Translations under genes and position numbers: made by a program
Part shown: piece by piece, positions 3,717-57,156 of the stretch
How the letters are laid out: every line of letters begins with the position of its first letter
Numbering within the stretch: position 1 is the stretch's first letter
The notes under the pieces: model-generated
What the model was told of the DNA's origin: nothing
Seen by the model: only the letters and a program-made list of their open reading frames with translations
Database searches by the model: none
Source: Caenibius tardaugens NBRC 16725
GTDB taxonomy: Bacteria > Pseudomonadota > Alphaproteobacteria > Sphingomonadales > Sphingomonadaceae
NCBI RefSeq assembly: GCF_003860345.1
Contig: NZ_CP034179.1
Coordinates: 2,402,001 to 2,466,000, forward strand
Direction: 5' to 3'
DNA: 64,000 nt

Positions 3717-4619
3717 GTGTTTGCGAATATGCAGAGCACTTCACGGCATATGCGTATGATTCGGACATTGCTTGTGACGGCTATCGCCCTGGCAGCGGGG
3801 GTTGTGTTGGTTGTGCAGACCATGAATGCTCGCCACGATATTGGCGGCACCATGCGCCATCATAATCTGCGCAGTGGGGTTATCATTTATGGCATTCAGG
3901 GTGAGCATCCACGGATAAGGCGCTTCGCATCGGAAAAGGGTAAGGTTTACAATTTCTGGAGCCTGTCCAAACCGATCACGGCAGCGGCTGTTTTTGCCGC
4001 TGCGGATCGAGGGTTGGTCGATCTGAATGAAAAGTACGCGGGGGCTTCGGTTGCGGATCTCCTGCGTCATGCGGGCGGATGGGATCGGAAGTTAGCCGGA
4101 GATCCCATTCACGATCTGCAGGAGCAAGAGCGTTGTATCGACATGCCGATACCACCCCGCCAGTTTGAACCCGGCACCAAAGCAGAATATTCGAATGTCG
4201 GTTACTGTGCGCTCGGGCGATTGATTGAGGGGCGCTTCGATCAATCCTATCACGACGCTGTAACCGCGATGATCCCTGAAGCGATCGGGATGACATATGA
4301 CGATCGGCTCGGACCTGCTGGTGGCTGGGGTGGCACGGCAGAACAGTATTTTGCATTCGCGCAACGCGATGTTCCTGCTCGGGCGCTTGTCCGGCCATCT
4401 TTCGCGTCGACCGGACCATATTATGCTTTGGGCTGGCGTGTCCTGGGCGACGGTACCCTGTCGCATTTTGGCATGCTGACCGGTACGGCAAACGATCAGT
4501 TCACGGTAGTTTACAAACGTGGTCGGTGGACTGCGGTCGGGTTGTTTTCCGGGATGCCGACAAATGGGGAAATTGCACGCAACGATCTGCTTTCGGCGAT
4601 CCGCGCGCTTCCTCGATAA
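3717..4619 (+). CDS. serine hydrolase, beta-lactamase / penicillin-binding-protein-like
   Basis: About 300 residues with an N-terminal hydrophobic segment (signal or anchor, residues 14-36). The class C beta-lactamase fold motifs are present: SxxK as SLSK (Ser82-Lys85) and YxN as YSN (Tyr158-Asn160). Many such proteins are esterases or D-peptidases, so beta-lactamase activity should not be assumed. The start is uncertain: GTG 3717, ATG 3729, 3750 and 3756 are all possible and none has a good SD. Base composition is visibly lower in GC than the neighbours. The gene splits the tRNA-Trp/secE neighbourhood, suggesting later insertion. Confidence 0.75.
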   Translation: MFANMQSTSRHMRMIRTLLVTAIALAAGVVLVVQTMNARHDIGGTMRHHNLRSGVIIYGIQGEHPRIRRFASEKGKVYNFWSLSKPITAAAVFAAADRGLVDLNEKYAGASVADLLRHAGGWDRKLAGDPIHDLQEQERCIDMPIPPRQFEPGTKAEYSNVGYCALGRLIEGRFDQSYHDAVTAMIPEAIGMTYDDRLGPAGGWGGTAEQYFAFAQRDVPARALVRPSFASTGPYYALGWRVLGDGTLSHFGMLTGTANDQFTVVYKRGRWTAVGLFSGMPTNGEIARNDLLSAIRALPR

Positions 4620-4706
4620 GCCGCGATTCACGCCCGCGAATCGGGAACCAGGCGATGAATCGTGCGTTTTGTGAGGCAGGATGCAGCTTCATCGAGGAGC
4701 ACGATC

Positions 4707-4856
4707 ATGAGCAGCATGACGTTTCGCAGCAGTCGTCCCGATACCTGGACATTGCCCCGCTCGCATACCGATCCCAGTCTCCGCTATCAGAAGCATGGAC
4801 CGGTGCAGCCGATGTATCGTCCGACGTTCTGGGAGCGTTTGTGCGGCGTGCGCTAG
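4707..4856 (+). CDS. small hypothetical protein (49 aa)
   Basis: A short frame beginning at the ATG at 4707 with a strong SD (GAGGAG, 7 bases upstream). The product is basic, has no membrane segment, and ends in MYRPTFWERLCGVR, an arrangement (RP-hydrophobic-ERL-G) resembling tails of small sphingomonad proteins; that resemblance is from memory and was not searched. It lies between the serine hydrolase and the secE leader. Function unknown. Confidence 0.5.
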   Translation: MSSMTFRSSRPDTWTLPRSHTDPSLRYQKHGPVQPMYRPTFWERLCGVR

Positions 4857-4966
4857 TTTGCGCGCTAACCAGTGGCGGGCAGGTCTGATACCGTAGGGGT
4901 GTGGCAGGCGCGCGCGGGCGCAACGATGCGCCTGCAAGCCGCCCTGTGCGGCTAAAGTGTGCCGCA

Positions 4967-5078
4967 TCACCTTGCATAATCCACCAGCCGGGGCTAAATG
5001 CCTGCTGCCTTCCGACATTCGGAGCCTCACTGCCCCTCCCGGACATGGTCCGGGGCGGCGATGCCCCCTAGGCGGAAG
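4967..5078 (-). ncRNA. structured intergenic element, possible SRP-like RNA
   Basis: Read on the minus strand, the 259-nt gap before secE can fold into a long hairpin. An 8-bp base helix (GCAUCGCC with GGUGAUGC) closes an inner helix that can form as CCGGG/CCCGG or as GGGGC/GCCCC. The tip has a UCCGA/UCGGA stem followed by GGAAGGCAGCAG. The tip recalls helix 8 of 4.5S RNA (GGAAGG-n-AGCAG), but the stem is longer and the GGAA tetraloop is not in its normal place, so it may instead be a leader or terminator complex. Two more hairpins lie at 4903-4936 and 4937-4953. Confidence 0.35.
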
Positions 5079-5115
5079 GCGCATGTTTTTTGAACGGTAA
5101 GAGTCGTCACGTCAT

Positions 5116-5310
5116 ATGGCCAAGACCAGCCCTACTGAGTTTCTTCGTCAGGTTCGCACAGAGGCCTCCAAGGTTGTGTGGCCGACGCGTGAGGAAACGA
5201 TCAGGACCGCGATTTTCGTCGGTATCCTGATGCTCATCCTGTCGCTGTTTTTCCTTGGCGTCGATTCCCTGTTCAGCGCCGTGGTGCGCGGGCTGCTTTC
5301 GCTGGCCTGA
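5116..5310 (+). CDS. secE: preprotein translocase subunit SecE
   Basis: A 64-residue short-form SecE. The amphipathic N-terminal helix (FLRQVRTEASKVVWPTREE) contains the conserved VxWPxRxE motif and is followed by one transmembrane helix (about residues 31-56). It is the essential clamp of the SecYEG channel. It is followed by nusG after 36 bases, the near-universal secE-nusG pair. Confidence 0.96.
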   Translation: MAKTSPTEFLRQVRTEASKVVWPTREETIRTAIFVGILMLILSLFFLGVDSLFSAVVRGLLSLA

Positions 5311-5346
5311 CGGCACGGCATAACACTGGATACGGATTACAGCACT

Positions 5347-5889
5347 ATGGTCGCTGCGCGTTGGTACATCATCCATGCCTATTCCGGCTTTGAGAACAAG
5401 GTTCGCGATTCGATCCTCACTGAGGCCGAACGTCTGGGCCTGTCCGAAGGCGTCGAACAGGTCGAGGTTCCGACCGAAACCGTCACCGAAGTGAAGCGTG
5501 GCAAGAAGGTTCAGGTCGAACGCAAGTTCATGCCGGGCTACGTTCTTGCCAAGCTGAAGCTCAACGATGACGTGTATCACCTCGTCAAGAACACCCCGAA
5601 GGTTACCGGTTTCCTCGGTTCCAGCGGCAAGCCGCAGGCCATTTCCGAGAAGGAAGCCGCCCGTTATTTCGGCGCTGCCGAAGAAGCGGCGGCCCAGCCC
5701 AAGCGCCAGGTCAACGTCGATTACGAAATCGGCGATTCGGTCAAGGTGCTCGACGGGCCGTTCGCCAGCTTCAACGGCGTTGTCGAAGAACTCGATTTCG
5801 ACAAATCGAAAGTCAAGGTGTCCGTGTCGATCTTCGGCCGCGGAACCCCGGTGGAACTGGACTTCGAACAGGTCGAACTGGTCAAGTAA
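5347..5889 (+). CDS. nusG: transcription termination/antitermination protein NusG
   Basis: A 180-residue protein with the NGN domain (about 1-115: RWYIIHAYSGFE, then FMPGYVLAKL) and a C-terminal KOW domain (about 125-178: GDSVKVLDGPFASFNGVVEE). NusG binds RNA polymerase, suppresses pausing and links transcription to Rho or the ribosome. The start ATG fits the family N-terminus. It lies between secE and the ribosomal protein pair rplK-rplA. Confidence 0.97.
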   Translation: MVAARWYIIHAYSGFENKVRDSILTEAERLGLSEGVEQVEVPTETVTEVKRGKKVQVERKFMPGYVLAKLKLNDDVYHLVKNTPKVTGFLGSSGKPQAISEKEAARYFGAAEEAAAQPKRQVNVDYEIGDSVKVLDGPFASFNGVVEELDFDKSKVKVSVSIFGRGTPVELDFEQVELVK

Positions 5890-5949
5890 CTTCTGGTCGT
5901 CGCTCCCTCCGCATCGCGGTGGGCGGCACGCATCAAAAAGTTGCTTTTG

Positions 5950-5973
5950 GGCGCCCCTTCGATTAGGGGCGCC
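5950..5973 (+). promoter_or_regulatory. perfect hairpin in the nusG-rplK leader
   Basis: An 8-bp perfect stem (GGCGCCCC / GGGGCGCC) with an 8-base loop in the 214-nt gap between nusG and rplK. No T tract follows, so it is not a standard terminator. A role in processing, partial termination or L1-type autogenous control of rplK-rplA is possible, but unproved. Confidence 0.45.
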
Positions 5974-6103
5974 GCTTCCCGCAAGGGATCTGTGCGGAAG
6001 GATGGCCCACCGGCAACGGGATCGCCATCTGCCTGACCGCTAAACATGAGGATGGGATACCCGGTTTCCCGGGCCTGTCCGACAGTGTGAAAGGAGTGGC
6101 CAC

Positions 6104-6535
6104 ATGGCCAAGAAGATTGAAGCCTATATCAAGTTGCAGGTGCCTGCCGGCTCCGCAACGCCGTCGCCGCCGATCGGCCCTGCACTGGGTCAGCGCGGTG
6201 TGAACATCATGGAATTCTGCAAGGCGTTCAACGCCGCGACGCAGGAACTTGAAAAGGCGATGCCGATCCCGACCATTATCACGGTCTATGCGGATCGCAG
6301 CTTCACGTTCATCACCAAGACGCCGCCCGCATCCTTCCTTATCAAGAAGGCTGCCAACCTGAAGTCGGGTTCCAAGGAACCGGGCAAGGTTTCGGCCGGG
6401 ACGATCGCACGCTCCAAGCTTGCCGAAATCGCTGAAGTGAAGATGAAAGATCTGAACGCCAACGATATCGAACAGGCGACCAAGATCATCGAAGGCTCGG
6501 CCCGCTCGATGGGTCTCGAAGTGGTGGAGGGCTGA
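6104..6535 (+). CDS. rplK: 50S ribosomal protein L11
   Basis: A 143-residue L11 of standard length. The N-terminal domain carries [34 protein letters not shown], with the proline pair used in factor and thiostrepton interaction, and the C-terminal RNA-binding domain ends in ARSMGLEVV. It lies at the base of the L7/L12 stalk and is needed for RelA activation. It precedes rplA by 4 bases, and SD AAGGAG lies before the ATG. Confidence 0.97.
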
Positions 6536-6539
6536 TAGC

Positions 6540-7241
6540 ATGGCCAAGCAGACCAAGAAGCAGAAGATGCTCGCTGAAAAGCTGGGCGACAATCAGGCAC
6601 TGCACACTTTCGACAACGCGCTGCAGACGCTGCGTGACCTCGCCACCGTGAAGTTCGATGAAACCATCGAAGTCGCGATGAACCTGGGCGTCGACCCGCG
6701 TCATGCCGACCAGATGGTCCGTGGTATGGTCTCGCTGCCTTCGGGCACGGGCAAGGACGTTCGCGTTGCTGTGTTCGCTCGTGGCGACAACGCTGACAAG
6801 GCTCTCGCCGCCGGTGCGGACAAGGTTGGCGCCGAAGACCTCATGGAAGACATGCAGGCTGGCAACCTCAACTATGACCGCGTGATCGCAACCCCGGACA
6901 TGATGGGTGTTGTCGGTCGTCTCGGTAAGGTTCTGGGCCCCAAGGGCCTGATGCCGAACCCGAAGCTCGGCACTGTGACGCCGAACGTGGAACAGGCCGT
7001 GAAGGACGCCAAGAGCGGCCAGATCGAATTCCGCGTGGAAAAGCTGGGCATCATTCACGCCGGTATCGGCAAGATGTCGTTCAGCGACGATGCGATCAAG
7101 GCGAACTTCAACGCTCTGGTTGACGCTGTGGTCAAGGCCAAGCCGTCGGGTGCCAAGGGCAAGTATGTCCGCAAGGTTTCGCTCAGCTCGTCGATGGGGC
7201 CTGGCCTCAAGATCGATACGGCAGACCTCGCCGGCGCATAA
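6540..7241 (+). CDS. rplA: 50S ribosomal protein L1
   Basis: A 233-residue L1 of normal length with the signature segments [24 protein letters not shown] and the C-terminal MGPGLKID. It binds 23S rRNA at the L1 stalk, and in other bacteria it also represses its own operon through the leader mRNA. A strong terminator follows, so rplJ-rplL-rpoB-rpoC are not part of this transcript. Confidence 0.97.
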
Positions 7242-7296
7242 TTTTCATGGCGTTGCGGCCCCGATGGGCCGCGATGCCGCGAAAACTGCCAGAAAC

Positions 7297-7330
7297 AAAA
7301 GGCCGGGGGTATCCTCCGGCCTTTTTGTTT
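7297..7330. terminator. bidirectional intrinsic terminator after rplA
   Basis: The stem GGCCGGGGG / CTCCGGCC is flanked by AAAA on the left and TTTTTG on the right, so it can end rplA on the plus strand and also serve the convergent lipoprotein gene on the minus strand. Confidence 0.85.
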
Positions 7331-7339
7331 GTCCCGCGC

Positions 7340-7912
7340 TTACCAGTCTGGGGTGAGGTTGGCGCGGGTATAGCATTCCTGCACCAGACTGATCGGGGTT
7401 CCATCGGGCAGAGACAGGACCGCGCGTTGCATCAGGATGGTATCCGCAGGACACCCTGCACCGCCACCCCGCACGGATGCGAGTTTGCGACGCGTGAAAT
7501 CGAGCGCGGCGACCGCTTTGCCGAAAGGCGTGTCGGTGCTTTCCAGTATCCCGTTCATTTCGGGCGAAAGACGCGCGGGAACATACCAGTTGTGCGCTTC
7601 GGACAGGACGGTTTCCCCGCAGACAAGGCGCACATGGCGATAGCCGATCGTGTCCCCTTCGTTGAGCCTGAGCAGATCGCGAAGATCTGACGGTTGATCC
7701 CCGGCGTCACTTGCCATTTGCACCGCGCGGATCACCGGCGGATTGCCCATATTATGCGTCCGGCACCACTGGGTCAGCGCTTCGGTCGCGCTGACGTTTG
7801 CGTCCAGCGTGCTTTCAAACGCATCAAGCGGGAGCGGATTGGGCGTCGTGCAGGCCGCAAGCGACAAACCGGCAGCGTAAACTCCGATTCTGGCGGTGCG
7901 GGGGGAATCCAT
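7340..7912 (-). CDS. lipoprotein with chorismate-lyase (UbiC/UTRA)-like fold
   Basis: A 190-residue protein with a lipoprotein signal (SLAAC at about residues 17-21). The rest follows the UbiC/UTRA layout: RHVRLVCGETVLSEAHNWY, then PFGKAV, and finally a strand pair with ISLVQECYTRANL, in which the Glu matches the catalytic or ligand-binding Glu of chorismate lyase. UbiC itself is cytoplasmic, so an exported lipoprotein form is odd and a binding role is as likely as catalysis. The fold assignment is by pattern only. Confidence 0.55.
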   Translation of the reverse strand: MDSPRTARIGVYAAGLSLAACTTPNPLPLDAFESTLDANVSATEALTQWCRTHNMGNPPVIRAVQMASDAGDQPSDLRDLLRLNEGDTIGYRHVRLVCGETVLSEAHNWYVPARLSPEMNGILESTDTPFGKAVAALDFTRRKLASVRGGGAGCPADTILMQRAVLSLPDGTPISLVQECYTRANLTPDW

Positions 7913-36926: not shown

Positions 36927-37084
36927 GCCGACACCACCGGGCCGGAACTTTCCAGCACCACCGCATAAGTCCGTTCGCCGTTGAAATCCCCGGCATAGTC
37001 GAGCCGCTGGATCAGGAACCGGCCATGCAGGGTTTCCCCGCCTTCGAAGGCCAGTTCGTAATCCGCCAGCGTGCCAGCCAGCGC
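36923..37084 (-). pseudogene. 3' remnant of GTA major tail protein (g9)
   Basis: The last about 53 codons of a tail tube gene, reading ELAFEGGETLHGRF, then IQRLDYAGDFNGERTY and VLESSGPV. This is the conserved C-terminal pattern (LxYAGxxxGExxY...LxSAG) of GTA g9. There is no start codon or N-terminal two thirds, and the frame is entered directly from the portal gene sequence in another phase. It ends in a normal ATGA overlap with g10, showing it was the native upstream neighbour before the deletion. Confidence 0.8.
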
Positions 37085-38007
37085 ATGGCTTCGCGGTAAT
37101 TGGCATATGTCGCATCGCCCGGCAGGCCGAGGAGCATCGGCGGCACCCCGAACGCCAGGGCGATATCGCGGGCGGCGGCGGCTTTCAGCGTGGCGAAATC
37201 CATGTCCGCCGGGCTCATCGACAGCGATTGCCACGATAGCCCGCCTTCCAGCAGCATCGGCCGCCCGGCATTGGATCGCCCGGAATAGGCCTCGGTCAGT
37301 TCCTGCCGCAACCGGGCGAACTGATCGGCGGACAGGCCGCCGCCATCGCCGGTATCGTAAATTAGCGCGCCGGAAGGCCGGGCCGCATTTTCCAGCAGTG
37401 CGCGGTTCCACTGGCTGGCGGCGTTGTGGATCGCCACGGCCTGTTCGGCAGCGGCAAGGCAACCTGCGCCATAATGGTCATCGGCAGGGTGGAAGCTCTT
37501 GAGCTGGATCAGCGTGGGCCAGCCATCCTCATCCTCCACCGGCATGGTGATGGTGCGGTCGCCCACGCGATAGAGCCAGGCGGCGGGCCAGCCATCGGGA
37601 CCGGGGTGGACCGTCACGCGTTCGGGGCGCAGGGCGAACAGTTCGACCGGCTGGCCCGCGCCATCGCGCACGATCTGCACAAACCCGTTGCCGTGCAGCA
37701 GCAGATGGGCGGCCAGCGTTTCCAGCAGCGATTGCCCCGCACTGGTCGCGCCGACCAGTTTCAGAAGGGCCTCGTCCGTGGGCATCAGCGGGGCGCTGCC
37801 CACCCCTTCCGCCGTCAGCCGCACGGCGCGTTGGGCCACCGGATTGTCGAGAAAGGCCCGCGTGACAGAACGGCGATAGTCATAAGGCGGGAAGGCCGGG
37901 CCGGGGTCGCCGGCATGGACCCATGGCGAGGTGAAGCCGCGCGCCAAAGGCACACGTTCGCCCCCGCCGCCCTTGAAGGCAGCGGTCAGGCTGGAGAGGA
38001 AAGACAT
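37012..38007 (-). pseudogene. GTA portal protein (g3), truncated by internal deletion
   Basis: A 331-codon frame. Residues 1-307 are an HK97-type portal (FTSPWVHAG, NPVAQRAVRLTAEGV, HGNGFVQIVRDG, then FGVPPMLLGLPGDATYANYREA). Intact GTA portals are near 390-400 residues. After about residue 307 the next 24 codons read through tail-gene sequence in the wrong frame to a stop. The missing end normally contains the last clip and crown helices, so a working dodecameric portal is unlikely. SD and ATG are normal. Confidence 0.85.
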
Positions 38008-38070: not shown

Positions 38071-39429
38071 TCAGACTGTGCGCACGCGTGGTTCGGCACG
38101 CGGATTCAGCAGCAATTCGTGCATGGCCCAGACCAGCGCATCGGCGCGGTCGGGCGAACGGGCAGGGCCGTGCCAGCCGCCGCCTGCCATCAGCCCGCAC
38201 AATTCATCTTCCAGCCGGGCGAATTGGCCGCAATGGCGCACCCGCCCCGCTTCGTAGAGCGCGGCCACCGGTTCGGCCCGGGCGGCCTTGCCCCGGCTGG
38301 CGTGGACCAGCCGCACCGGCATGGCGCAATCGGCGGCGCGCAGCACGGATTCGACCATGGCCCCGCCCTGATTGGCTTCGGCCACCACGCGGTCTGCCTG
38401 CCACGCGCTGGCGGCCTGCGCGACGGCGCGGGCCCAGCGTTCGGGGCTGGCTTTTTCGGCGGAACAATCGGCCAGCACGCGCCCGATCCCGTCTTCGCCC
38501 AGTGCGGCGACGATGATCCCGCAGGCATCGCCCGTGGCCGAAGCGGGTGGATCGACCGCCACCACCACACGCCGCAAGGGGGGCGTTGTGGCGGTTTCGC
38601 GGCAGCGTTCGAGCAGGGCGCGGCTCCACAGCGCACCTTCGACATCGGTCAAGAGATCGCCGTCCAGTTCCTGCCGCCCCAGCGCGGTATCGCCAAATTC
38701 GTCCAGAACCGTTTCGATGAACCGTTCCGGCAAGTGCGCGGCATTGGCGAACGTCGATCCCCGGGTCACCACGGTGGCCCCGGCGTCTTCTCCCTCCAGC
38801 AGGCGGCGCAGCAATGGCACCGCGCGCGGGGTTGTGGTGGCGATCAGGCAGGGCACTTGCCCCAGCCGCAGCCCCAGCTGCAGGTTGTTCCATGCCCGCG
38901 TGGCGCGATCGCCCGCCAGATCCCACTTGGCGATCTCATCGCACCAGCCATGGCTGTGCTGGGGGCCGCGCAGGCTTTCCGGTTCGGCGGCAGAATAGAG
39001 GAACGCCTGCGCCCCATTGGCCCATGTCAGACGGCGCAGCGACGGTTCGAACTGCGGCATGCTGGCGGGCGGTGAACAGGCGAGGATACCGCTTTCCCCT
39101 TCGACCATCACCGCGCGCGCTTCCCCCAAAGAGGCGGCGACGAGGGCAATCCGCGCATCAGGATGGGCGGTTGCGATCTGGCGCACCCATTCGGCCCCGG
39201 CGCGGGTCTTGCCAAAGCCGCGCCCGGCACAGATCAGCCAGTTGCGCCACGGGCCTGCCGGGGCGAGCTGTTCTGCACGCGCCCACAAGCGCCAGTGCCA
39301 GCGCAGTTCCGCACGCTCTCGCGGGTCCAGCGTGGCGAGAAACGCGGCGCGCTGCGGCCCGGACAAGCGGGGGAGCCAGCCGATATGGGCCCTGCTGTCA
39401 TTCGCTGCATCATGCTTGCGCTTCGCCAT
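38071..39429 (-). CDS. GTA terminase large subunit, g2-like
   Basis: A 452-residue packaging motor. The Walker A motif is GRGFGKT (Gly69-Thr75), the Walker B/acidic region follows at WCDEIAKWD, and the C-terminal RNase H-like nuclease domain has the acidic residues VVVAVDPP, VVAEANQGG and DRADALVWA. In GTAs it packs random host DNA by headful. The ATG at 39429 is inside the end of the small subunit gene (20-base overlap). The gene is intact. Confidence 0.92.
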   Translation of the reverse strand: MAKRKHDAANDSRAHIGWLPRLSGPQRAAFLATLDPRERAELRWHWRLWARAEQLAPAGPWRNWLICAGRGFGKTRAGAEWVRQIATAHPDARIALVAASLGEARAVMVEGESGILACSPPASMPQFEPSLRRLTWANGAQAFLYSAAEPESLRGPQHSHGWCDEIAKWDLAGDRATRAWNNLQLGLRLGQVPCLIATTTPRAVPLLRRLLEGEDAGATVVTRGSTFANAAHLPERFIETVLDEFGDTALGRQELDGDLLTDVEGALWSRALLERCRETATTPPLRRVVVAVDPPASATGDACGIIVAALGEDGIGRVLADCSAEKASPERWARAVAQAASAWQADRVVAEANQGGAMVESVLRAADCAMPVRLVHASRGKAARAEPVAALYEAGRVRHCGQFARLEDELCGLMAGGGWHGPARSPDRADALVWAMHELLLNPRAEPRVRTV

Positions 39430-40006
39430 CGCGCCCTCCGGTCTTGCGTTTGGCGGCATCCCCGGCCTTGCGGCGTGTTTTCAGCAGGTGGGCCGTGGCC
39501 CGTTCCCGGCTGCGCATCGCCGCGATCTTGGCATTGATCGCTGCGATTACGCTGGCTTCGTCTTCCATCGTCTGCCGCCCGCGTTCGCGCGCCACGGATT
39601 CGCGATGCGCGGTCAGGACGCGCAGGGCCGTGGCGGCATCGAACTTGCGTTCGGCGGGAGGTGCTCTGTTCGTGGTTTGTTCGACATCTTTTTCCTTTTG
39701 TTTGTCGGTGCTTTGTTCATCGGGCGTCTGTCCGGGCATGTCCTGCACTTTGCCGGTGCGCAGCCAGCACAGCAGGTCCATTTCCAGATTGTCGTATCCT
39801 TCGCACAGGGCGGCGAACCACTGGCGCCGGAATTCGGGGTCGTTGCGGCGTACCTTGTAGGCCTGGCTCGGGCTGATGCCCGCCGTGCGCGCGGCGGCGG
39901 CCACGTTGGAAGTTTCGCCCAGCGCATGGATGAAGGTTTCGCGCCATTTGCGGGGCAGGCCATGGCGGCGATGCGCGGCGGGCGCACCGGCAGGATGCTT
40001 GGTCAT
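39410..40006 (-). CDS. GTA small terminase-like protein, g1-like
   Basis: A 198-residue protein. An N-terminal helix-turn-helix (FIHALGETSNVAAAARTAGISPSQAYKVRRNDPEFRRQW) matches small terminase DNA-binding domains. A charged, Lys/Glu/Arg-rich middle and C-terminal coiled coil follow. In GTAs the small subunit does not pick a specific pac site. SD AAGGAT lies 5 bases before the ATG. First gene of the cluster. Confidence 0.78.
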   Translation of the reverse strand: MTKHPAGAPAAHRRHGLPRKWRETFIHALGETSNVAAAARTAGISPSQAYKVRRNDPEFRRQWFAALCEGYDNLEMDLLCWLRTGKVQDMPGQTPDEQSTDKQKEKDVEQTTNRAPPAERKFDAATALRVLTAHRESVARERGRQTMEDEASVIAAINAKIAAMRSRERATAHLLKTRRKAGDAAKRKTGGRDGEAQA

Positions 40007-40090
40007 GGGGTATCCTTGTTGGGTGTGCTGCCGCGCCGGTGGGCCGTTTCGCCGGTTGCGGGGCGACTCGCAGTATCGCGATGTTCCCTA

Positions 40091-40119
40091 TGTCTAACCA
40101 AATAGCGTTACGATGTCAA
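40091..40119 (-). promoter_or_regulatory. predicted sigma-70 promoter of the GTA cluster
   Basis: On the minus strand a perfect -35 TTGACA (40114-40119) lies 17 bases from TAGACA (40091-40096), a fair -10 box. Transcription would start near 40084, about 80 bases before the terminase start. The surrounding 60 bases are AT-rich in contrast to the flanks. Confidence 0.6.
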
Positions 40120-40142
40120 GTTAAAATAACCAAATAGGTTAT
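40095..40142. promoter_or_regulatory. paired operator-like boxes over the GTA promoter
   Basis: TAACCAAATAG occurs twice in direct orientation (40095-40105 and 40127-40137), 32 bp or three helical turns apart. Each copy is also half of an inverted repeat (TAAC...GTTA and ATAACC...GGTTAT). One copy fills the promoter spacer and the other sits just upstream of -35, fitting cooperative control by a dimeric regulator. Confidence 0.6.
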
Positions 40143-40265
40143 ATGCTTTCGGTTGCGGGCGCGGCAGGGCTGATTTAGACGACGGATCAGTGCCTTTCCC
40201 GGCGGGAGCGCGGCACCCCCCGGGCTGTTCTGCCCGCGACGACAACGGCGTTGGAGACCCCCTGC

Positions 40266-40907
40266 ATGCTGCGGCGATTGTACAACTGGACCATGACCAA
40301 GGCCGCGCATCCCCATGCCGAATGGTGGCTGGCGATGTTCTGCTTCATCGAAGCCAGCTTTTTCCCGATTCCGCCGCATCCCCTGCTCGGCCTGATGTGT
40401 CTGGCCGAACCGAAGAAGGCGGTGCGCTTTGCCGTGATCGCCACGCTGGCATCGGTTGCCGGTGGTTTCCTGGGCTACGGCATCGGCTGGGGACTGTACG
40501 ATACGGTGGGCGAACAACTGCTCGCCTGGCTGGGCCTGACCGACAGTTTCCCGGTGGCCGCCTGTTATCTGCGCGAAACCGGCTTCTGGATTTTCGTGGC
40601 CAAGGGCGCGACGCCGATCCCGTTCAAGCTGCTGACGATCACCGCTGGCTTTATCGGGATGAACCTGGCGATGTTCGCCGTGGCGAGCCTGGTGTCCCGT
40701 TCGATCAGTTTCATGATCGTGGGGGTGCTGTTCCGTCTGTTCGGTGCGCCGATCAAGAATTTCATCGACCGCTATCTCGGCCTTGTCACCGTCGGGTTCA
40801 TTGCCGCGGTTATCGCCGGCTTCCTCGCGCTGACGCTGCTGTCGGGCGAAGGCGCGCAAACCAAGGAAAAATGCGCGCAGGCAACCATGGCGGATGTCGC
40901 GCATTGA
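40266..40907 (+). CDS. DedA/YqaA-type (VTT domain) membrane protein
   Basis: A 213-residue protein with about five hydrophobic segments. The YqaA/SNARE-associated (VTT) pattern is visible: FIEASFFPIPPHPLLGLM near the start and the GATPIPFKLLTITAGFIGMNL core. Family members are linked to lipid scrambling and envelope stability. The ATG at 40266 has GGAG 9 bases upstream. It diverges from the GTA promoter. Confidence 0.85.
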   Translation: MLRRLYNWTMTKAAHPHAEWWLAMFCFIEASFFPIPPHPLLGLMCLAEPKKAVRFAVIATLASVAGGFLGYGIGWGLYDTVGEQLLAWLGLTDSFPVAACYLRETGFWIFVAKGATPIPFKLLTITAGFIGMNLAMFAVASLVSRSISFMIVGVLFRLFGAPIKNFIDRYLGLVTVGFIAAVIAGFLALTLLSGEGAQTKEKCAQATMADVAH

Positions 40908-56286: not shown

Positions 56287-57156
56287 ATGAAAAAAGTCGG
56301 CGTAATCGGGGCCGGGCTTATGGGGACGGGGATCGCCCAGACCTGCGCGCAGGCCGGGCTGGACGTGATCCTGTGCGATCTGGATCTGGCAATTGCCGAC
56401 AAGGCGAAAGCCATGATCGCCAAACAGCTCGCCCGTATGGTCGACAAGGACAAGATCGCCGCCGCCGATGCCGATGCCGCACTGGCCCGCATCACCACCA
56501 GCGCCGATTATGCGCCTATGGGCGCGGCCGACCTGGTGATCGAAGCCGCGACCGAACGCGAAGAGATCAAGCGCAAGATATTCGCTGCCGTGGGTGACAT
56601 TCTCGGTGAAGGCGCAATTCTGGCCAGCAATACCAGCTCGATCCCGATCACCCGCATGGCTGCCGCCAGCCCCGATCCCGCGCGTTTTATCGGCATTCAT
56701 TTCTTCAACCCTGTGCCGGTCATGCAACTGGTGGAAATCATTCCGGGCCTTGCGACGAGCGCGGAAACGCTGGAACGGGTGCGCGCATTCGTGCGCCAGA
56801 TCGGCAAGACCGCGGTTGAGGCGGGGGATGAACCCGGCTTCGTGGTGAACCGTATTCTGGTGCCGATGCTGAACGAGGCGGTGTTCGTTCTGGGCGCGGG
56901 TACGGGCAACGTCGCCGATATCGACAAGGGTTGCAAATTGGGGCTCAGCCATCCGCTGGGGCCCTTGGAACTGGCGGATTTTATCGGTCTGGATACTTGC
57001 CTGGATATCATGCACGTGCTGCATGAAAGCACGGGCGATCCGAAATATCGCCCTGCGCCGCTCTTGCGCAAATATGTCGAAGCGGGCTGGCTCGGCCGGA
57101 AAAGCGGGCGTGGTTTCTACGATTATTCGGGGCCGGAACCCGTGCCTACGCGTTAG
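56287..57156 (+). CDS. 3-hydroxybutyryl-CoA dehydrogenase
   Basis: A 289-residue single-domain-pair enzyme (NAD-binding 1-~185, helical C-terminal domain after). The Rossmann motif GAGLMGTG is at residues 8-15, catalytic His is in [11 protein letters not shown], Glu in the paired VEIIPG, and Asn in [14 protein letters not shown]. It oxidises (S)-3-hydroxybutyryl-CoA to acetoacetyl-CoA or the reverse. The ATG at 56287 follows GAAGGGGG. Confidence 0.92.

Follow-up and report, generated by a model that had tools for sequence, protein, structure and literature searches.

The main promoter of the gene transfer agent (GTA) cluster in Caenibius tardaugens NBRC 16725 belongs to a control region that, from sequence comparison, is held nearly unchanged across the whole sphingomonad family. 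Its upstream box recurs in the same genome between a divergent XRE gene and gafZ, which points to a two-part on/off switch composed of a repressor and a likely activator. Gene transfer agents are tame phages that ship host DNA between cells. The reading preferred here, with a probability of roughly 0.6, is that a strong promoter is held off by a RogA-like repressor and is then fired via GafZ, loaded in the manner of phage Q proteins. The conservation, the shared box, the gene arrangement and the predicted protein fold behind this reading come from comparison of genomes and from a structure model.

The features concerned are listed in Table 1, with positions in the window, that is, the whole 64,000-nucleotide stretch of DNA that was analysed. 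A previous sequence-only reading had placed a perfect TTGACA, a 17-bp spacer and TAGACA upstream of the terminase gene and had named them a GTA promoter. These elements were confirmed. They occupy 40091-40119 of the minus strand and lie 85-113 bp ahead of the start codon of terS, and the GTA assignment is supported by the cluster downstream, which is of the RcGTA type and has this promoter as its main one; past the portal gene it encodes GTA-gp10, DUF2460, a phiJL001-Gp84-type hub and Rcc01698-type proteins. The repeat TAACCAAATAG also proved to be present as claimed, once in the spacer and once upstream of the -35 (exact copies at 40095 and 40127, 32 bp apart); the 4,358,096-bp genome has no other exact copy. 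A generic sigma-70 scan misses the promoter because it requires a T at position 6 of the -10, which TAGACA lacks. No Rfam match was obtained in 39800-40300 at E <= 1, and a terminator scan stayed at background level (4 found, 2.7 expected).

Table 1. Features of the GTA control region and of the first cluster genes (positions in the window).
Feature	Position	Strand	Remarks
-35 TTGACA	40114-40119	minus	exact in 88 of 90 footprint loci
-10 TAGACA	40091-40096	minus	sphingomonad family form TAnAnA
17-bp spacer	40097-40113	minus	between TTGACA and TAGACA
ATCGTAACGCT, palindrome-like, directly past the -35	40104-40114	minus	candidate GafZ loading element, presumed function
Initially transcribed block, conserved	40064-40086	minus	start site deduced from the -10
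-10-like GAACAT in the initially transcribed block	40081-40086	minus	
G-N8-YG pause-type bases	G 40079, C 40070, G 40069	minus	predicted pausing
Operator box, TAACC-AAATA-GGTTA palindrome	40127-40141		centre near -50; the RogA-like XRE repressor is proposed to bind here
Spacer copy of TAACCAAATAG	40095-40105		best read as -10 context
Whole sphingomonad-wide promoter footprint	40062-40143	minus	about 80 bp
terS, terminase small subunit, first cluster gene	39410-40006	minus	PHROG 4044, E 7.5e-8
terL, terminase large subunit	38071-39459	minus	Terminase_6C/6N
Portal gene, cut short, fused to the end of a tail-tube gene	37012-38007	minus	junction near 37085

The large terminase was matched in 136 of 199 genomes of the sphingomonad family, and the upstream DNA of 110 terL loci from these genomes was examined, those left out being mainly partial or weaker matches. 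An iterated weight matrix aligned a promoter block of about 80 bp common to 90 of the 110 loci, representing 59 genera; none of the 90 scores below 42, and the shuffled controls (60 shuffles) never rose above -25. When each genus is represented by a single locus, the information content between -24 and +56 around TTGACA is 1.04 bits per column, as against 0.12 and 0.14 in the flanks, or about eight times as much. The remaining 20 loci comprise eight with AACC-N5-GG upstream of TTGAC, four with a transposon end inside the promoter, two with TTGACAGCG and without the box, and six without any match to the patterns used.

Conservation extends past the -35 and into the transcribed region. The motif A[TG]CGTNACGCT (A[TG]CGTnACGCT) follows the -35 in 37 of the 59 genera, and at least four of its five arm pairs are kept in 45. 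At a fixed place within about the first 20 bases of the transcript, the -10-like ANNNT occurs in all 59 genera, compared with a mean of 5% and a maximum of 12% in the flanks, and it is followed by G-N8-YG in 52 of them, bases which we take to be the elemental-pause consensus.

A model of the footprint (R1; the model alignment, A3, was built from 52 of the 59 genus representatives) finds a single match in the C. tardaugens genome, with E 1.8e-21. Among 240 genomes of the class it gave three strong matches (E <= 3e-17), all in the sphingomonad family, and 24 other matching genomes at E 0.003-0.1, in one of which the match (L387) lies upstream of terL. The compound pattern of box, TTGACA and NCGTNACGCT, scanned over 84,980 species genomes, was present in at least 120 stretches. 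Among the 80 stretches listed, 71 bear sphingomonad names, going by our own placement of the genera, eight come from bins of Alphaproteobacteria or Proteobacteria and one has the title Arthrobacter; the large terminase lies downstream on the same strand in 52 of these 80. Eighteen of the 28 listed stretches without it have a small-terminase match or end within 1 kb, and the last ten, read singly, consist of four with an IS1595-type insertion, two with portal-like and one with terS-like sequence, in each case as judged by eye, and three ambiguous cases.

The upstream copy of TAACCAAATAG is half of TAACC-AAATA-GGTTA, a perfect 15-bp palindrome. Exact TAACC-N5-GGTTA occurs once in the window, and two sites were found with at most one mismatch, against 0.30 expected. 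In keeping with the sequence-only reading, the box recurs at the same position in related GTA loci (AACC-N5-GG in 80 of the 90 footprint loci and 55 of the 59 genera), at one fixed offset to the -35 in 73 of the 90. Most genera have GG[TC]A as the right half of the box, and 16 of the 90 loci have GGTTA; since the right half is thus usually not GGTT, the box may bind weakly. It might be supposed that the box serves not the GTA but the divergent VTT/DedA-like membrane gene (40266-40907, plus strand), which starts about 125 bp from it and is the divergent neighbour in 47 of 86 footprint loci. However, the box is kept in 34 of the 39 loci that have another divergent neighbour, and its fixed distance is to the GTA -35; an operator for the VTT gene was rejected on the former ground, and this explanation is highly improbable.

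The claims that each copy of TAACCAAATAG is half of a palindrome, and that there are two phased inverted-repeat boxes, are borne out by the letters of this genome, but in the family the upstream copy alone is kept as a box. Around the spacer copy the palindrome is loose (TAAC...GTTA), and its GTTA belongs to the adjoining CGTnACG motif, the middle base of which varies. Covariation was tested in those 73 loci (49 genera) whose box stands at offset -21: upstream and spacer 11-mers agreed at 6.02 of 11 positions within a genome and at 5.97 after shuffling of partners between genera (p = 0.35), and the exact 11-bp repeat was present in 2 of the 73. A twin operator of two phased copies was rejected on these figures as the conserved feature.

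A related proposal has two cooperating operators, of which the upstream one is strong and the other, 32 bp or three turns away, is a half-site that overlaps the -10. The exact repeat in C. tardaugens, the presence of GGTTA in the spacer of 48 of the 90 loci and a weak correlation of the inner five bases alone (p = 0.017) would agree with it, whereas the lack of covariation in the full 11-mers, the rarity of the exact repeat and the promoter L387 do not. L387, which belongs to another family, lacks the AACC box and keeps GGCTA at the place of the spacer copy; it also has a perfect GACACCG-CAA-CGGTGTC between its -35 and -10 and GGAATTGCG after the start. Cooperating operators are therefore considered quite unlikely. 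For the same three reasons the spacer copy, which does not track the upstream box, is best read as -10 context, although it may act as a weak second half-site. From these alignments, the conserved feature is the upstream box with the whole footprint, and not the exact repeat.

IS1595-type transposons of about 3 kb (DDE_Tnp_IS1595, E 1.7e-33) were found inserted exactly at the GTA promoter -10, with their transposase oriented in the GTA direction. The 8-bp target duplications copy the -10 and read TAGAGAAA, TAGAGGTA and ACATATAT where both ends were seen. Insertions occur in L376 (G194, ~4605-7470), L375 (G163, ~4664-7772) and L285 (~4305-7904), and further ones in L377 (G185), L378 (G084), L261 and L316, while L298 is the same place as L376; in all, six or seven genomes are affected (G084 and L261 could be one), with at least three different duplicated sequences. 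By their sequences, these are repeated insertions at one site that place the transposase under the GTA promoter. The cargo genes differ between elements (L376, L375, L285, L298) and include DUF3800 (L376, 5845-6705, E 6.2e-10).

The second locus of the proposed switch contains gafZ. The C. tardaugens genome has one gene with the GafZ domain DUF6456 (E 1.1e-37), a domain matched in 176 of the 199 family genomes, and this gene is divergent from one encoding a 190-aa XRE protein, with TAACCAAATTGGTTTT between them. The xre/gafZ regions compared number 69, namely 70 loci from the 176 matching genomes plus C. tardaugens itself, minus L200 (the same place as L162) and L203 (a GTA region). AACC-N5-GGTT is present in 46 and AACC-N5-GG in another 15, and in all of these 61 the box is followed by a T[GT]TCC[TA]A element; by this test the other eight have neither form of the box (G115, G033, G012, G102, G009, G163, G132 and G181). 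A second conserved element, T[GT]TCCTACA, stands past the xre/gafZ box with nearly constant spacing; it is followed by TTGGCAAG-like bases (e.g. L052 1337-1375) and is possibly the promoter of xre or gafZ. In nine genomes of the family (G115, G033, G020, G096, G109, G135, G055, G164 and G151) gafZ lies directly upstream of terL and not at a distant locus.

The search for the box elsewhere in the genome, suggested by the sequence-only reading, thus yielded the xre/gafZ intergenic site, and with it a site inside a coding frame. In the 4.36-Mb genome AACC-W5-GGTW / GGTT has three sites, in the GTA promoter, between xre and gafZ and inside a 907-aa open reading frame. The reversed control of this A/T-centred pattern also has three, and therefore the argument is one of location, not of number. 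A large regulon was rejected, as AACC-N5-GGTT shows no enrichment over its control across the genome (65 against 60) and the A/T-centred form equals its control, one of its sites falling in the long reading frame. Nor was covariation seen within genomes between the inner five bases of the GTA box and those of the gafZ box (36 pairs, p = 0.29).

The XRE protein contains HTH_3 and HTH_31 domains. Its predicted structure (pLDDT 88) has a LexA-like fold (3k2z, E 1.4e-5) and matches LexA and the lambda repressor, so that the model combines an N-terminal HTH with an S24/LexA-like C-terminal domain, as in a RogA-type repressor. In an alignment of 36 rows, compared by eye with the LexA motifs, the presumed counterpart of xKRL is [FL]xRL, where x is G or A, and GD is not preceded by an SM pair. 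The available part of the Caulobacter RogA study describes the S24 catalytic residues as missing in RogA (PMC9632790). Sphingomonadales are not among the orders listed there as rich in RogA, which counts against the RogA-like assignment.

Homologues of the XRE protein lie 0.5-1.0 kb from gafZ, divergently, in 11 genomes of other families, and six of these 11 gaps contain an inverted repeat whose 5-bp centre is A/T-rich; that of G201, TTAACG-AAATA-CGTTAA, has the same geometry and a different half-site. The box thus appears tied to the XRE protein and not to the promoter alone. It counts against this reading that, at E <= 1e-6, the XRE profile found nothing or matched weakly in 11 of 26 other gafZ genomes, and that some further gafZ genomes had matches of HTH length only. 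The gene between the repressor homologue and gafZ in other families is often GafY-like, with Bac_DnaA_C in six of the six tested. Control by a host repressor, which the sequence-only reading had proposed, is favoured by the recurrence of the box beside a repressor-type gene.

Other known regulators of GTAs were also looked for. In the C. tardaugens genome the GafY profile and PF08299, the Pfam model that picked up GafY-like proteins of other families in six of six cases, match DnaA only, and GafY thus appears absent, as far as these profiles can tell. In 99 genomes of the family the profile mostly matched frames of the size of DnaA; nine genomes had a match in a frame shorter than 350 aa, some of which are perhaps cut-off DnaA. 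The pattern WATCAANNNNTTR, taken here as the IHF site, has no match in the window. TTAA-N7-TTAA, assumed to represent the full CtrA site, has none near the promoter at up to one mismatch, which bears out the remark that no CtrA-type site is obvious there. That reading overlooked a GafA-type system, gafZ (DUF6456) being present and a palindrome-like element lying where the Caulobacter GafZ site does, and it also overlooked the loss of head genes from the cluster. GTTC-N7-GTTC, presumed to be the LexA/SOS pattern, does not occur in the promoter, its nearest match being at 39668-39682, inside terS, and the Caulobacter RogA operator GGAA-N4-TTCC has one match in the window, at 56733, outside the promoter.

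From the foregoing we infer binding, repression rather than activation, pausing and antitermination in the sphingomonads. The XRE protein, RogA-like, would bind the box at both loci and thereby keep its own/gafZ control region and the GTA promoter off. When the repressor is lost, GafZ would be made. RNA polymerase would start at the strong promoter and is predicted to pause near +15 at the -10-like sequence, where GafZ, docked on the element between -35 and -10, could load onto the paused enzyme, and the resulting complex would run through the long GTA cluster as with phage Q proteins. Such a promoter would need a lock rather than an activator because its -35 is at consensus and GafY is apparently absent. 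This fits Caulobacter, in which a near-consensus -35 removed the need for GafY, according to the available sections of PMC11150451.

The box could instead be an activator site, from which the XRE protein (in a cI-like role) or GafZ would help RNA polymerase. It is centred near -50 and does not overlap the -35, which counts against repression, and proteins of the cI type can both repress and activate. A position near -50 is, however, unusual for activators, help seems less needed with a -35 at consensus in 88 of 90 loci, and the same box lies close to the xre gene start, as is typical of autorepression. In Caulobacter, GafY binds upstream of its promoters, as reported in the available text of PMC11150451. 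An activator site is on balance judged unlikely, and repression by the RogA-like protein is preferred. More tentative, with chances somewhat short of even, is the wider proposal of a complete lambda-style switch split over two loci. A cI/LexA-like repressor with a regulon of two sites would bind directly at the late promoter of the GTA and at its own/gafZ region, and a Q-like antiterminator would be loaded at a sigma-dependent pause encoded shortly past the start; GafY, IHF and CtrA would be dispensed with, and the activation circuit of other families would be rewired to repression and antitermination with promoter geometry fixed across some 60 genera.

Relative to G001, a genome from the same genus, a piece of 3.68 kb is missing from the window between the portal and tail-tube genes, which in G001 encodes the prohead protease, the capsid and the completion protein, and G003, also of this genus, has a still larger deletion. 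With these head genes deleted, the GTA of the strain is probably dead, as judged from this cluster alone, though promoter and operator are intact, and the GTA seems to be decaying in the genus while its promoter persists. The chances are about equal that the promoter of C. tardaugens is a relic, the GTA being dead and the control region merely not yet decayed: both deletions would favour this, and the intact state of the promoter and of the xre/gafZ operator argues against it. A relic would concern present use only and is compatible with control by repressor and GafZ.

GTA control has so far been worked out mainly in Rhodobacter and Caulobacter. The sequences of the sphingomonads indicate another wiring throughout the family, with a consensus promoter, a repressor-type box and antitermination-type signals, and a candidate repressor and the exact bases to mutate can be named for switching on their GTAs. 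How a lytic, costly trait stays off and is yet inducible thereby becomes open to direct testing. Through the conserved -10-like and pause-type bases, GafZ loading can be tested as well, a point left open by the Caulobacter authors in the available part of their paper (PMC11150451). No description of the sphingomonad GTA promoter, box or wiring was found in the open-licence GTA literature searched, including the available portions of PMC9836097 and PMC13236601.

The closest known system is the RogA-GafYZ-IHF control of the Caulobacter crescentus GTA, CcGTA, as presented in the available parts of two studies (PMC9632790, PMC11150451). Both have a gene for GafZ (DUF6456), a repressor of XRE/S24-like type whose site lies in the control region of gafZ (here predicted) and a palindromic element between the -35 and -10 of the main promoter, where Caulobacter GafZ, an antiterminator, has its site (PMC11150451). 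They differ in that Caulobacter RogA is described at the gafYZ promoter, on GGAA-N4-TTCC, whereas the sphingomonad box is also on the main promoter. In Caulobacter the -35 of the main promoter is weak, and GafY and IHF are required; the sphingomonad promoter has a consensus -35, with GafY apparently absent and no IHF-type site in the window.

The Rhodobacter capsulatus RcGTA has a homologous cluster, and the C-terminal part of its activator GafA corresponds to GafZ and binds around the -10/-35 (PMC9638019). There, however, GafA is fused with a DnaA-like N-terminus and CtrA provides an input (PMC9638019), whereas the sphingomonad promoter has no CtrA-type full site and the genome no GafY part. 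As to the lambdoid Q proteins, lambda Q and 21Q, 21Q uses direct repeats while the sphingomonad element is palindrome-like, and GafZ is described as without similarity to Q proteins in the available text of PMC11150451. The likeness lies in the layout: the accessible parts of PMC6606751 and PMC7171158 describe for Q an element to be bound between -35 and -10, together with a sigma-dependent pause brought about by a -10-like sequence early in the transcribed region, and the sphingomonad promoter has a candidate element and a -10-like sequence at these places, with pausing predicted.
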